Below are positions 880-52,040 of a DNA stretch of 64,000 nucleotides, in pieces; within the stretch, counting starts at the first letter, position 1, and each line of letters opens with the position of its first letter. Below the pieces are notes generated by a model. That model saw only the letters and a list, made by a program, of their open reading frames with translations. It had not been told where the DNA came from and searched no databases. Position numbers and translations under genes: made by a program. The DNA is from an uncultured bacterium (GTDB lineage: Bacteria; Bacillota_I; Bacilli_A; RF39; UBA660), in NCBI GenBank assembly GCA_947646655.1, contig CANSHI010000001.1, forward strand, positions 1-64,000. The letters run 5' to 3'.

Positions 880-1935
880 TTACAATTTTTTGGCTTCAGT
901 CTCTATCTTTTCTATTTTAGTTCTATCCATTATCATATAGTTTGAAAATTCTTCTGTTGTCATACTCGGAAAAATATATTTTTTAATCATATAAGTTAAA
1001 CATGCAGTTCGTGAAAAACTCATTGTTTCTTTCACTACCGTTTGTCTAGCAGGCGATAAAATGCTTGATAAATAATATATACTTGTTAAGTCGAGATCAG
1101 CATTTCTAAAGGCTCTATTAGCATATAAAACTGTGCCATCAACCGTTTTAATCGTGCCATCATCATTTTTTAAAGGATCTAGTTTGCTTTCTAGAACTTC
1201 ATACTCTTTAAGCAATAAAGGTTCCATTAATTTAATAATTCTTGAAATCGCGGCATCACTTCTTAGATGAAGCAAAGAGGCAATTTCTTTTAATTCCATT
1301 TTAGAACCCGATTTAAGCCCATAATATTTTTCTATTATTACTCTGATTATAGGGTTAAATAGAGCTAATTTTCTATTTAACTCATAACCATCACAATTAA
1401 GTACTTTAAATGTCGGAACATTACTGAGTCTTAATCTTTCTGCTTCTTCTAAATCGATATATTTAGTAAGATATATAAACTTTCTTCTCAGTTCTTTGTT
1501 ATACTTTTGGGATGTCATAAAGTTTGGAATATTTTCTAACGGAGTTATATAAAATTCGTTAAATTTATTAATAATATCATTAGGATTTGTATTGCAACTA
1601 ACTGATTTTTTTGCATCTCCACACCAAACGTCACGCAGTTTATGAAGATATTTAGTAGGCATAAGGTATAATTTATAACCAAAACTAGGATCTAAAAGTA
1701 AGTATTCTACTTTATAGTTTCCGTATGATTTAAAATAATTAACAGCAAATTGTGGGAACGGTAGTCTTAACTGATTAATAATCGACGAGATTTGTGTCGG
1801 TTTTGTTGGATTATAAGGTTCTTTTTTTAATTCTCTAATTAACAGTGCTAATTCTTCGTTAGCTAATATTTCTCTTTTTTCTTCCCATTCACTTATTCCG
1901 TAATATTCAAACATTTCTTGATTAGTTAGTTCCAT
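880..1935 (-). CDS. divergent sigma-factor-like HTH protein
   Basis: I do not recognise this 351-residue protein as a named family. Residues about 195-245 read like sigma-70 region 4: a YYGL segment, then a helix-turn-helix with the pattern KEIASLLHL...AAISRIIKLMEPLL. The N-terminal 190 residues are rich in aromatic and charged residues and have no clear region 2 signature. There is no signal peptide or membrane segment. A promoter-like TTGACA lies about 45 bp upstream of the ATG at 1935, and the start follows GAGGGGATG as a ribosome site. It lies downstream of recA on the same strand. A similar YxGL-plus-HTH arrangement occurs in the protein at 26346-27590, so this lineage may carry a small family of such proteins. 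Confidence 0.6.
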   Translation of the reverse strand: MELTNQEMFEYYGISEWEEKREILANEELALLIRELKKEPYNPTKPTQISSIINQLRLPFPQFAVNYFKSYGNYKVEYLLLDPSFGYKLYLMPTKYLHKLRDVWCGDAKKSVSCNTNPNDIINKFNEFYITPLENIPNFMTSQKYNKELRRKFIYLTKYIDLEEAERLRLSNVPTFKVLNCDGYELNRKLALFNPIIRVIIEKYYGLKSGSKMELKEIASLLHLRSDAAISRIIKLMEPLLLKEYEVLESKLDPLKNDDGTIKTVDGTVLYANRAFRNADLDLTSIYYLSSILSPARQTVVKETMSFSRTACLTYMIKKYIFPSMTTEEFSNYMIMDRTKIEKIETEAKKL

Positions 1936-1990: not shown

Positions 1991-3070
1991 TCAAATTTCG
2001 TCTTCGGGCATAACTTCGGGTGTTGTGTCTTTAGGCACCGTTTTTTTTACATTATCTCCGTTTATTTCATAATGTGTACGAATTTTGTCTTCTATTTCTT
2101 CTGCTATATCAGGATTTTCTTTTAAAAATATTTTAGCATTTTCTTTCCCTTGCCCAATTTTTTCGCCATTGTAGGAATACCAAGCACCACTCTTTTCGAC
2201 GATGTCGATATCTGATGCGATATCTAGTAATTCTCCTTCACGTGAAATTCCTTCGCCGTACATTATATCTACAGATATATTTCTAAATGGTGGCGCAACT
2301 TTATTTTTAACGACTTTGATATTTGTTTTATTTCCGATGATTTGATCACCATTTTTGATCTGTTCTCCGCGACGTATGTCTAAACGAATTGTCGAATAAA
2401 ATTTAAGTGCTCTTCCACCTGGGGTAGTTTCAGGATTTCCAAACATTACTCCTACTTTTTCACGAAGCTGATTGATAAAAATTGCTGTCGTCTTAGTTTT
2501 ATTAATATTTCCAGATAGTTTTCTTAAAGCTTGTGACATGAGTCTTGCTTGTAAACCGACATGTGAGTCACCCATCTCACCTTCAATTTCGGCTTGTGGA
2601 ACGAGTGCTGCAACGGAGTCTACAACGATTAAGTTGACAGCCTCACTTTTAACGAGTGCATCTACGATTTCTAGAGCTTGTTCTCCTGTATCAGGTTGGC
2701 TCAATAATAATTCGTCTATGTCGACACCTAAGTTTTTACTATAGACAGGATCGAGAGCGTGTTCTGCATCGATAAAAGCCGCTCTTCCACCTTTTTTTTG
2801 ACATTCGGCAATAGCTTCTAGAGCAATAGTCGTTTTACCACTCGATTCAGGTCCAAATATCTCGATAATTCTTCCTTTTGGAAAACCACCTACTCCGAGT
2901 GCAATATCTAGACTTAATGAACCACTAGGAGTCGTTTCAACTTGAATGTGATCCTCGCTACCCAATTTCATAATAGCGCCTTTACCGAACTGTTTTTCTA
3001 TTTGAGCCATTACTTCTTCTAATGTTTTATCTTTCCCTTGTGATTCTTTTATAGTTGCTTTTTTAGCCAT
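1991..3070 (-). CDS. recA: RecA recombinase
   Basis: This is a full-length RecA of 359 residues. RecA forms ATP-dependent filaments on single-stranded DNA for homologous recombination, and in most bacteria also triggers the SOS response. The Walker A motif GPESSGKT is at residues 73-80. The DNA-binding loop region ([22 protein letters not shown]) and the acidic C-terminal tail are also present. The start ATG follows GGAGGTAAAG. A housekeeping promoter (TTGACA-N17-TAAAAT) ends about 20 bp upstream. A second, more distal promoter-like element at 3152-3181 is nearly identical to the one in front of the peptide-export locus at 40.4 kb. Confidence 0.98.
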
Positions 3071-3091: not shown

Positions 3092-3120
3092 ATTTTAAAC
3101 TACACTTTTTACTTTGTCAA
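3092..3120 (-). promoter_or_regulatory. recA proximal promoter
   Basis: TTGACA (3120-3115), a 17-bp spacer and TAAAAT (3097-3092) on the minus strand fit a vegetative sigma-A promoter for recA. Confidence 0.75.
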
Positions 3121-3151
3121 TATTTCCTCATATTTTGTCCCTCTAATATAT

Positions 3152-3181
3152 ATTATACCGGATAAATTTGATTTTTCTCAT
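3152..3181 (-). promoter_or_regulatory. distal recA promoter-like element shared with the peptide locus
   Basis: Read on the minus strand, the element is ATGAGAAAAAT, eight variable bases, then TCCGGTATAAT. The last six bases form a perfect -10 box, but there is no TTGACA at the usual distance. The same 30-bp block occurs at 40387-40416 with 27 of 30 bases identical. Conservation beyond a -10 box suggests a regulator site or an alternative-sigma promoter. Confidence 0.55.
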
Positions 3182-38003: not shown

Positions 38004-38162
38004 TTATTTTATTTTTCGCATATTACATTTAGTCGGGTTTAAATAGCCATCGATAAATCCTGCGATTAGAGATACCAAAGCTCCAATGCCTGCTACAAGT
38101 CCATAAACCCAGCCTGATCCTCCACCTTGGATGTTTGCAAGCTCATTTTCTGTTAATTTCAT
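38004..38162 (-). CDS. double-glycine-leader peptide A (class II bacteriocin-like)
   Basis: This is a 52-residue peptide whose ATG follows AGAAAGGATGGAACAT. It overlaps the end of the transporter gene by 20 bp. The leader MKLTENELANIQGG is a canonical double-glycine leader. The mature part of 38 residues has a W-V-Y start, then GLVAGIGALVSLIAGFIDGY with GxxxG spacing typical of class IIb helix-helix partners, and a basic tail with one Cys (PTKCNMRKIK). The C39 transporter immediately upstream would cleave after GG and export it. Confidence 0.75.
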   Translation of the reverse strand: MKLTENELANIQGGGSGWVYGLVAGIGALVSLIAGFIDGYLNPTKCNMRKIK

Positions 38163-40185
38163 ATGTTCCATCCTTTCTAAAGTTTACAATAGTTTTAAAC
38201 GTTTTTTCTTTGTTGCGGTGCGTGATGTAGATTAAAGACATATTTTCGATCGATAATAGATTTTTAAGAATAGATTCTTCCATATTTTCATTAACACTGG
38301 ACAAAGTCTCATCGATAATTAGTATTTGAGGTTTTTTGTAGAGCGCTCTTGCTAAGATAAGTCGAGCTCGCTCTCCGCCTGACAGATTGGATGCACCCTC
38401 TAGTACTGTGGTATGTTCTTTATCTCTACGTTTATTTATAACTTCATCTAATAATGTAATATTAGAAATATATTGAAATCTATCCATATCATAGTCATCT
38501 AAAGTGACATTTTCTAAAATCGATTTTCTAAATATTTTTTCTTCTTGACCTATGTATATCAAATAAGACCTTAAAGAATCGATTGAAATGTCCTTAATGT
38601 TTTTATCATTGAGGGTTATATACCCTTCGTATTTATCTAATAGACCACATAGGCATTTTACTAAAGTACTCTTTCCTATTCCACTTGGGCCTTTGATTAA
38701 AATCTTCTCGCCTTTTTTAAATTGGAAATTAAAGTTTCTAAGTTGATAATGTATTCGATCATATGAGAACGATAAGCTTTTAATTTTAAGATCTGTAAAA
38801 GGTTTATTGTAATTTGGGATAATTCTTTCTTCTCGGACATCATTAAATTCACATATGTTTCTGAATATAGCTTTTCCTTTGAGAAAATATTCGAAGGTAG
38901 TAGTTAAACCTTCAAACGAGAGGAAAAATAAGGAAAATATAGATTCATATGTTATGAGGTCTAAGAAAGTAAATGATTCGCTGATACTTAAATAGCCAAC
39001 TAAACCGATACATAAAATACCAATGTCAAATAATAAAGTTTTAATAAATTTTATACGATGATTAGTTGAATTACTATTTAGACGAACATTTGTATAATTT
39101 TTAAGGGTATCTGTTATGTATTTTAAAAAGAAATTTGTGGCATTTAAATTTTTGATACTTTCTAAACCGTCTAAGTATTCAACTAGTGTTCCCGAATAAT
39201 CATTGTATGTTTTCAAACATTTTTTCTCATTTTTATATAAAATATTTTGTGTAAAAATTGTAATAAAGGTGTATAATATTAGTATAGTCGAATATATGAA
39301 TGTCAATTTTGTAGACAGTATAAGTAAAATCGGATACAAAATGACGATTGTCAATAGATCTAAACTATTGATTATGAAAAGTCTTATGAGTAAGTCTTTT
39401 ATAAAAGTCATATCTTCGATTTTTTTTACTATTTCACCGACTCGTTTATTATGTAAATATTTAATCGGTAATTTAAAAATATGAGATGTAAAATTTTTTA
39501 GAGACTCATCATCAATATATTTTATAACTTTTTCTAACACATTTTCTTTAAAGAGAGTCATGCTGTTGGCAAAAATTCGGCATAAAATTAATACACACGT
39601 TATGAAAATAGGACTTGCTATTTTTAAATTTAAAAGTTTTAGTTGAAAACTAGTTATTAAATTTAATAATAAAATTAATATACAAGAAAATGCAACAATG
39701 ACTATACTGATCTTTTTCTCTTTGATTAGAGGAAAAAATGTTTTGATCAATGATTTACTTTTTTTGAATTTAGGAATTTCACCACGAGAAGTAACAACGA
39801 TCGTGTTTTTTGTAAAAATTTTTCTAAATTCCTCTACAGAATATATTTTTTTACCGTATTCGGGATCCATGGTTAGGATAGTATTTTCTTTTATTTCATA
39901 TATGACAAGAAAATGTTCATAACCATTTTTTAATATATGACCTATTATAGGAAGCTTATTTTTATCAATTTTGTCTAAAGAGATCTTTAAACCATAAGCA
40001 TCAAACCCATATTTTTTTAAGGCTTCTACTAGATTTAGAGCGGATGTTCCTGATGTCGTTGTATTTGTATCTTCTAAAACCAATTCGAGAGGTACATAGC
40101 CGTCATAAAAAGATACAATACTTTGAATACACTTAGCTCCGCATGAAGAAATGTCATCTTGGATAAATATGTCTTTATTTTTCAT
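38143..40185 (-). CDS. peptidase-C39 ABC transporter for double-glycine peptides
   Basis: This 680-residue export ATPase is of the LagD/ComA/NukT type. The N-terminal C39 peptidase has Cys15 in SSCGAKC, His91 in GYEHFLV and Asp107 in MDPEYG. Six membrane helices lie between about 155 and 430. The ATPase has a Walker A near 498-505 (GPSGIGKST), LSGGERARLILARAL, and ILIIDETLSS. It cleaves leaders after GG and exports the peptides. The ATG follows GAGGTGGTGATTTT. No HlyD-like accessory gene is present, and no immunity gene is recognisable downstream. Confidence 0.93.
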   Translation of the reverse strand: MKNKDIFIQDDISSCGAKCIQSIVSFYDGYVPLELVLEDTNTTTSGTSALNLVEALKKYGFDAYGLKISLDKIDKNKLPIIGHILKNGYEHFLVIYEIKENTILTMDPEYGKKIYSVEEFRKIFTKNTIVVTSRGEIPKFKKSKSLIKTFFPLIKEKKISIVIVAFSCILILLLNLITSFQLKLLNLKIASPIFITCVLILCRIFANSMTLFKENVLEKVIKYIDDESLKNFTSHIFKLPIKYLHNKRVGEIVKKIEDMTFIKDLLIRLFIINSLDLLTIVILYPILLILSTKLTFIYSTILILYTFITIFTQNILYKNEKKCLKTYNDYSGTLVEYLDGLESIKNLNATNFFLKYITDTLKNYTNVRLNSNSTNHRIKFIKTLLFDIGILCIGLVGYLSISESFTFLDLITYESIFSLFFLSFEGLTTTFEYFLKGKAIFRNICEFNDVREERIIPNYNKPFTDLKIKSLSFSYDRIHYQLRNFNFQFKKGEKILIKGPSGIGKSTLVKCLCGLLDKYEGYITLNDKNIKDISIDSLRSYLIYIGQEEKIFRKSILENVTLDDYDMDRFQYISNITLLDEVINKRRDKEHTTVLEGASNLSGGERARLILARALYKKPQILIIDETLSSVNENMEESILKNLLSIENMSLIYITHRNKEKTFKTIVNFRKDGTYEINRK

Positions 40186-40204: not shown

Positions 40205-40258
40205 TTAAAAGAATATTGTTACTAATAATTTAATAATTTTCATTACTTTGAAAAACAT
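40205..40258 (-). CDS. 17-residue cationic hydrophobic peptide 2
   Basis: MFFKVMKIIKLLVTIFF, preceded by the strong site AAAAGGAGGTAAATAAA. It aligns without gaps with peptide 1 (9 of 17 identical, the rest mostly conservative). Lysines at 4, 7 and 10 lie on one helical face and the rest is hydrophobic. There is no leader. It lies 19 bases upstream of the transporter start. It could be a leaderless membrane-active or signalling peptide. Too short for homology to decide. Confidence 0.6.
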   Translation of the reverse strand: MFFKVMKIIKLLVTIFF

Positions 40259-40295
40259 TTTATTTACCTCCTTTTCTAGATTGCTTTATTTCTTA

Positions 40296-40349
40296 TTAGA
40301 AGAAAAACATTACGATATATTTAACAATTTTTATAATTTTGTAAAACAT
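40296..40349 (-). CDS. 17-residue cationic hydrophobic peptide 1
   Basis: MFYKIIKIVKYIVMFFF, preceded by GGAAAGGAGATG. It is the first gene after the shared promoter element and is followed by TAATAA. Its length, Lys spacing and FF end are the same as in peptide 2, 37 bp downstream. The conserved pattern with different codons argues that both are translated genes rather than chance frames. Confidence 0.6.
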   Translation of the reverse strand: MFYKIIKIVKYIVMFFF

Positions 40350-40386
40350 ATTAATTACATCTCCTTTCCTTACCTCTCTACTCATT

Positions 40387-40416
40387 ATTATACCGGACAG
40401 ATTTTATTTTTCTCAT
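40387..40416 (-). promoter_or_regulatory. promoter-like element of the peptide-export operon, shared with recA
   Basis: On the minus strand it reads ATGAGAAAAAT, eight bases, then TCCGGTATAAT. It is 27/30 identical to 3152-3181 upstream of recA. The TATAAT lies about 38 bp before the start of the first 17-residue peptide. No standard -35 box is present. Confidence 0.6.
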
Positions 40417-51347: not shown

Positions 51348-52040
51348 ATGCTAGGATTATTATTTGGTTTATTAAAGTCGATGTCTTTGTTTGCTGGTTC
51401 TTACTCTGTAAATGTATTTCCTGATCCATTAAGTGAGGCAGAGGAAGAAAAATGTATCGAGGGATTGATGAACGGTGACAAAGATTGCCGTAATAAGTTA
51501 ATAGAGCATAATTTAAGACTTGTTGCGCATATCGTCAAAAAGTTCGATTCTAAAGGAAATATGACTGACGATTTAATCAGTATTGGTACAATTGGTCTTA
51601 TTAAAGGTATAGATTCTTATGAACCATCTAAAAATGTTAAGATTACGACTTATGCTAGTAGGTGTGTGCAAAATGAAATTTTGATGCATTTCAGATCTAA
51701 TAAGAAAACTAATGGCGATGTAAGTTTATCTGATTCGATCGGTTATGATAAAGAAGGTAATGAGGTAAGTTTGATCGATGTCATAAAAGATGATTCGGAG
51801 GATATTGTCGAGGAATTGCATTTACAAGAGACTTTAAATAAGTTACAAAAATATATGGACATTTTAACCCCCAGGGAGAAGAAAATATTGGAAAAGAGAT
51901 ATGGGTTAAACAATACTAAAGAGGAAACACAGAAAGAAATTGCCAAAAATATGAAGATATCGAGAAGCTATGTTTCTAGAATTGAAAAAAGAGCTTTAAC
52001 AAAGATTTTAAAAGAATTTATAAAAAATCAGCAAAACTAG
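51348..52040 (+). CDS. sigK: sporulation sigma factor pro-sigma-K
   Basis: This 230-residue protein is sigma-K, the late mother-cell sigma factor. Residues 1-20 form the hydrophobic pro-sequence (MLGLLFGLLKSMSLF) normally removed by SpoIVFB. Region 2 is NKLIEHNLRLVAHIVKKF, DDLISIGTIGLIKGID and TYASRCVQNEILMHFRS. The KGDVSL-like linker (NGDVSLSDSIG) and the region 4 HTH (LTPREKKILEKRYGL and KEIAKNMKISRSYVSRIEKRAL) follow. The gene is uninterrupted, so no skin-type excision is needed. It explains the sigma-K promoters found at cotZ and the yjcZ-like gene. Confidence 0.94.
   Translation: MLGLLFGLLKSMSLFAGSYSVNVFPDPLSEAEEEKCIEGLMNGDKDCRNKLIEHNLRLVAHIVKKFDSKGNMTDDLISIGTIGLIKGIDSYEPSKNVKITTYASRCVQNEILMHFRSNKKTNGDVSLSDSIGYDKEGNEVSLIDVIKDDSEDIVEELHLQETLNKLQKYMDILTPREKKILEKRYGLNNTKEETQKEIAKNMKISRSYVSRIEKRALTKILKEFIKNQQN

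Follow-up and report, generated by a model that had tools for sequence, protein, structure and literature searches.

A genus-wide promoter upstream of recA in uncultured Bacilli, best read as a drifted sigma-H promoter

What kind of promoter does recA share with a peptide-export operon, and which sigma factor is likely to read it? The question arises from a promoter-like block that occurs twice in the window, by which we mean the whole 64,000-nucleotide stretch of DNA analysed here.

Two copies of the block in the window

The pair described in the initial annotation is real: positions 3152-3181 and 40387-40416, both on the minus strand, are identical at 27 of 30 bases, and each block lies upstream of the gene named for it (recA; the C39 exporter) in the same direction, as had been stated. 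Such identity is far beyond chance, and a 22-letter pattern that occurs twice in the window was absent from 100 shuffles. The conserved stretch runs about 13 bases farther downstream (TAGAGGG), so that the whole element spans about 43 bp, not 30. The block had been described as ending in TATAAT but having no -35 box. The first part stood, TATAAT being perfect in both copies, but the second did not, since ATGAGA is found at 18 bp and agrees with TTGACA at 4 of 6 positions; a sigma-70 scan of 3181-3152 gave 10 of 12 matches. The housekeeping promoter that recA was said to have nearer its start was found as well. The features are as follows.

880..1935, minus strand: 351-aa protein that follows recA and has a sigma-region-4-like helix-turn-helix stretch (seen by eye)
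1991..3070, minus strand: recA (Pfam RecA, 9.4e-142)
3092..3120, minus strand: second, housekeeping-type recA promoter (TTGACA-17-TAAAAT, 11 of 12 matches, read from 3120 to 3092)
3139..3181, minus strand: putative sigma-H-type recA promoter, ATGAGAAAAAT-N8-TCCGGTATAAT plus start-of-transcript element TATATTAGAGGG (profile R1, E 1.7e-11)
38143..40185, minus strand: C39-peptidase ABC peptide exporter, 680 aa (Pfam Peptidase_C39 1.5e-27, ABC_tran 9.7e-29)
40205..40258, minus strand: short ORF MFFKVMKIIKLLVTIFF with a strong ribosome-binding site
40296..40349, minus strand: short ORF MFYKIIKIVKYIVMFFF, first behind the promoter, with a strong ribosome-binding site
40374..40416, minus strand: second promoter copy, before the peptide-export operon (profile R1, E 2.9e-11)

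A regulon promoter across the genus

The genome to which the window belongs contains 7 matches to the motif at up to three mismatches (4 exact, 2 with one, 1 with three), and the reversed pattern, used as a control, has none there. An offset pattern with 11 N in place of 10 brought in a chance match and a further true site, C3:104532, whose spacer is longer. When a degenerate form was run against 84,980 species genomes, a collection that may omit the window's own genome, it was found in 23 stretches, all in three MAGs of the genus, and viral contigs gave no match. A scan of 60 genomes at up to two mismatches showed the motif in 4, each of them one of the nine genus members in that set. Diverged forms were recognised upstream of recA in G001, G004, G006 and G008, and on reading no clear motif was seen upstream of recA in G007.

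We then have a profile, R1, of 45 positions, built from 29 sites of eight genus genomes, G007 being absent from the training. Over 15 genomes it found at least 78 sites at E ≤ 1e-3, in all nine genus members, and none at that threshold in six sister-genus genomes among the 150 candidates scored per genome, the best matches there having E values from 0.003 to 0.09. The sites number at least 9 in G000, 6 in G001, 13 in G002, 12 in G003, 3 in G004, 13 in G005, 2 in G006, 18 in G007 and 2 in G008, which are lower bounds because 150 first-look candidates were scored per genome. Matches in the eight training genomes are expected by construction because R1 was trained on them; the sites of G007, at least 18, all lie outside the training set. 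The block is thus one copy of a genus-wide regulon promoter and not a mere pair.

The promoter varies from species to species. TATAAT is replaced by AATAAT in most G003 sites and before several dnaG genes, and by TAGAAT in many G005 sites. Inside a species, the promoters of unrelated genes are identical over about 39-45 bp, and they differ between species: in G003 the first 39 bp, spacer included, are the same before comEA, radC, the C39 exporter and two Rpn-like genes, and the G007 promoters of radC and comEA have a stretch of at least 45 bp in common. Within species, the spacer and the transcript start show more conservation than a sigma promoter needs, and either one sigma exerting strong selection or the copying of short tracts could account for this. 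Inspection by eye gave no ComK-type or dyad reading of the motif.

As first genes, the 78 R1 sites have recA (8), dnaG (8), comEA (5), SPOR/radC (5, one of them with a DUF421 gene in between), the C39 exporter (4, plus 1 different ABC protein matching the same reference), pre-sigF (3), Rpn-like (18), BRO (6), YhcG (3), RhuM (1), AAA-PDDEXK (1) and SpaA-type (2) genes, 5 unclassified genes and 8 contig ends. The promoter precedes recA in 8 of the 9 genus genomes and dnaG likewise in 8 of 9. Weaker sites (E > 1e-3, outside the 78) lie before dnaG of G007, the exporter of G004 and pre-sigF of G006, and by eye a form of the motif precedes comEA of G001; in G002 comEA begins close to where a contig ends, and the search for comEA gave no match in G006 and G008. 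Family checks on representatives returned ComEC (Competence, 1.1e-50), RadC, DnaG, DUF421, YhcG_C, Bro-N, RhuM and AAA-ATPase_like. Genes of the PilB/PilT type (pilus ATPases) were considered as members and rejected, having no R1 site. None of dprA, ssbB, comF, comG, cinA, radA and coiA was identified as the first gene of the 78 sites, with a reference set that lacks these genes and would count them as unclassified. The suggestion that a regulon similar to that of streptococci but distinct in sequence could exist here has thus proved sound: genome-wide, the matches precede genes of competence, DNA uptake and recombination (recA, comEA-comEC, radC, dnaG and nuclease-type genes), and the shuffles, the reversed control and the wide genome scans were clean of the many random or coding matches that would have spoken against it.

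"Rpn-like" is a working label, because Pfam gave no Rpn match for four such proteins and NCBIfam TIGR01784 scored below its cut-off in 3 of the 4 and missed that of L206. Rpn proteins have reportedly been linked to RecA-independent transfer and to phage defence (PMC5350276, PMC10327210). The mobile nuclease-type genes behind the promoter may act in recombination or defence, or may only serve themselves.

ORFs of 17-22 codons for basic hydrophobic peptides, with strong ribosome-binding sites, open all five exporter operons read, ahead of the C39 exporter in the window (40205-40349, minus strand) and at L178, L180, L207 and L214; judged by their sequences, they are candidate pheromones or leaderless bacteriocins. 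Between comEA and comEC, an ORF of 74-83 aa that we could assign to no family was seen in all five operons read (L011:6779-7021, minus strand).

Sigma-H promoters of the sister genera and the likely reader

In the sister genera, the orthologous promoters of dnaG, comEA and sigF carry the canonical sigma-H -35 box AAAGGAAAT in some upstream regions. In other genera of the family, AAAGGAAATT stands 50-57 bp before the dnaG start in 5 of 8 genomes, and in most of these, as in the genus, a TAGAGGG-like element comes next. A profile of 11 outgroup sites recovered at E < 0.01 only its own 11 training sites in 87 loci; because it gave no independent site, a matrix trained on five outgroup dnaG promoters only was scored on held-out upstreams against 300 shuffles. 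It found the box in 5 of 19 comEA upstreams at no more than 1/300 shuffles (a sixth reached 8/300), in 1 of 4 sigF upstreams, and in none of 28 sister recA upstreams (lowest 13/300 shuffles). The distance from these outgroup boxes is 48-65 bp to comEA and 118 bp to the start of the sigF operon, and no clear canonical box was seen in 14 of 19 comEA, 3 of 4 sigF and 3 of 8 dnaG upstreams of the sister genera. The sigF-operon promoter of G079, AAAGGAAATTGAAAAGTTTTATCGAATAATATATGTGAAGGG, aligns without gaps to the G003 form, ATGAGAAAAATGAAAGTTTTCCGGAATAATAATAGTAGAGGG, with GAAT at the same position.

The two boxes of a sigma-H promoter are spaced by 11 or 12 bases. In PMC8510167 they are given as RNAGGAWWW and RNNGAATWW. 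The window copies agree in their spacing of 11 and depart from the -35 box at two positions (AG swapped to GA) and from the -10 box at the first letter and at one GAAT base (GTAT for GAAT), GAAT being retained in G003 and in several dnaG copies. The best reading of the block is that it is the genus's drifted version of the sigma-H promoter of the sister genera.

It had been proposed that one of the odd sigma-like proteins in the window reads the block. This was not borne out, the best candidate being a SigH-family sigma outside the window, at G000:C2:121456-122070. The frame at 51348-52040 was rejected as reader, being SigK (306.7 bits against a cut-off of 298.65). So was the protein at 880-1935, for which Pfam and NCBIfam gave no match: a similar protein lies behind recA in G005, and none does in G004, G006 and G008, where RNase Y-like proteins (named from sequence, by eye) take that place.

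The SigH-family gene follows mrnC and rlmB in G000, G005 and G001, names that we take from the sequences and from the gene order of B. subtilis, and its identification relies on this mrnC-rlmB-sigH order and on the best family match; the best solved relative of the protein is 3mzy, a sigma-H factor. The NCBIfam spore_sigH equivalog TIGR02859, still among the best families, scored 81.6 bits, far under its curated cut-off of 294.8, and we therefore write SigH-family and not SigH equivalog. Of the 9 genus members, 7 have the gene; G004 and G007 yielded neither sigH nor rlmB, and because this neighbour is missing too, the locus is probably unassembled there. Within the genus, SigH is 50-57% identical to that of G000 and RecA 80-92%, and as judged from these sequences SigH is fast-evolving. 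Its recognition helix reads K-Q-(I/V)-Y-N...RAR in all 7 proteins found, with a genus-specific change from IDN to IYN at a position that, from sigma-70 structures, presumably faces the -35 box. In place of the Y, 6 of 8 sister genera have D, G021 has E and G076 has H. The canonical dnaG box occurs in 5 of the 6 sister genera with D (G034 has D and only a weak form of the box) and in neither of the two without it (G021, G076), a match that is a correlation and not a count of independent events because the genera are related.

Other readers and origins have to be weighed. The perfect TATAAT of both window copies and the sigma-70 score of 3181-3152 would also be expected of an ordinary sigma-A promoter, with ATGAGA as a weak -35 at 18 bp and an activator bound to the conserved ATGAGAAAAAT. 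We consider this unlikely: the AATAAT and TAGAAT forms show that TATAAT is not preserved elsewhere in the genus, the conserved positions all fall between about -36 and +6 and include no separate activator site, no dyad was seen by eye, and the orthologous promoters of the sister genera are sigma-H-like. Nor do we give much credit to the idea, which seems quite improbable, that the motif is read by a different sigma-70-like protein, such as the one of 1174 aa on G000:C18 or those of 415 and 406 aa on C14. These large proteins do carry sigma regions, and SigH was missing from G004 and G007, but similar large frames occur in motif-less sister genera (G076, G020, G015), at the classified sites none immediately follows the motif, and it is SigH that has the genus-specific helix change. 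The long proteins are encoded at L237:308-3832 (minus strand; 1174 aa), L234:6858-8105 (plus strand; 415 aa) and L234:10476-11696 (minus strand; 406 aa), and their sigma parts also match, below the cut-off, a model of MzaA-type defence sigmas.

The block might instead be a mobile promoter repeat of the Rpn-like, BRO and YhcG families that was dropped before host genes, and with 29 of the 78 sites before such genes, 8 of 78 at contig ends and the 39-bp identity among host and Rpn-like promoters of G003, this has something to commend it. The dnaG promoters nevertheless stand at the same place as the canonical ones of the sister genera, and inspection of the printed flanks by eye revealed neither a flanking duplication nor an end structure, so that we regard a mobile repeat as very improbable.

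recA between LexA and a competence-like regulon

A LexA box (up to two mismatches) was found in 26 of 28 recA upstreams of the sister genera, 69-102 bp before the start, and in none of 9 in the genus, where the best matches are at shuffle level (L081, too short, is excluded from the count). A LexA-type protein, encoded by an open frame of 167-174 codons, turned up in 6 of 9 genus members, and the Ala-Gly cleavage site, the Ser motif and the Lys are absent in all six, whereas 13 of 14 aligned LexA proteins of sister genera are intact; the LexA search in G032 gave no match. As found at L360, L351, L354, L362, L346 and L358, LexA is cut down to its DNA-binding domain and a short tail. LexA/SOS control of recA, present in the sister genera, thus seems from the sequences to be lost in the genus, and because both the box and the self-cleavage domain of LexA have gone, recA appears to have exchanged SOS control for that of a competence-like sigma-H regulon. 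Outside the genus, G072 has lost the LexA peptidase, and its recA has lost the LexA box and shows no sigma-H site, so SOS loss is possible without sigma-H rewiring. That loss (L070, L363) is perhaps independent.

The explanation that we favour, and hold as a whole to be quite probable, is that a drifted sigma-H promoter is read by SigH and governs a competence-like programme into which recA has moved from LexA. It builds on what is visible in the genomes, namely the regulon, the canonical promoters of the orthologous genes, the helix change and the loss of LexA box and peptidase, from which we infer that SigH reads the block and that the programme is natural transformation. The SigH-family (SigH/ComX) sigma of the genus would recognise ATGAGAAAA at -35 and, after 11 bp, CCGGTATAA at -10, with TAGAGGG at the transcript start; the promoter would descend from the canonical sigma-H promoter (AAAGGAAAT...GAAT) retained in the sister genera, the -35 box and the -35 recognition helix of SigH drifting jointly. 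Basal RecA would come from the separate TTGACA housekeeping promoter nearer the gene, and active SigH would give extra RecA together with ComEA/ComEC DNA import, RadC, the primase DnaG and the peptide operon, the programme also taking in the short peptides with their exporter and the mobile nuclease-type genes. In this course of events recA, once under LexA, would have entered the regulon while LexA lost its self-cleavage domain. More tentatively, a shift of -35 specificity through a few helix residues may have moved the whole regulon, its promoters changing in concert, as SOS was dismantled and recA, mobile nucleases and a peptide signal with its exporter were recruited; this fuller scenario is possible rather than probable.

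If the explanation is true, an alternative sigma and its promoters have drifted jointly, with before and after forms visible in sister genera, and the genus probably joins the streptococci as another group in which recA has gone over from SOS to a competence sigma. These uncultured Bacilli would then be predicted to be transformable, and a candidate pheromone is pointed to. In the open-access literature we found no paper on this recA/sigma-H rewiring, and a search on sigma/promoter co-evolution gave nothing useful.

The streptococcal cin box is TACGAATA, which differs from the genus motif. Streptococcal SigX (ComX) is a SigH-family sigma whose core regulon, as listed in PMC5069739, includes recA, radC, comEA and comEC, and all four, or their operons, have sites here. 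However, dprA, ssbB, comG and comF were not identified at genus sites, and unlike the SigX regulon that of the genus includes dnaG and nuclease-type genes, in an organism that has sporulation sigmas. Because the motif is not the cin box and the other core genes were not identified as first genes at the 78 sites, we regard the regulon as like that of SigX and not as a member of it. The two-promoter arrangement of the window's recA is shared with pneumococcus, where, according to PMC11708029, recA is transcribed from both a competence promoter and a constitutive one and the competence boost of recA raises MMS tolerance. In Lactobacillus sakei, sigH lies in a B. subtilis-like context and activates comEA and other com operons, but recA is little activated (PMC3364868), whereas here 8 of 9 genomes have the promoter at recA. 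The form of the Bacillus sigma-H -35 box, at the same spacing, is seen in the sister genera, whereas in the genus AGGA has become GAGA; in the genus, the com genes carry the promoter directly.

In B. subtilis, the sigF and dnaG-rpoD operons are sigma-H targets. Here pre-sigF and sigF lie behind the promoter in some species, and sporulation through sigF could therefore be a downstream branch; no motif was found upstream of sigF in G000. A secreted-looking protein of 380-445 aa, of no known family, precedes sigF-spoVA at L209, L223, L170 and L198, and at the same position in the sister genera (L246, L248, L250) there is a SpoIIAA-like gene.
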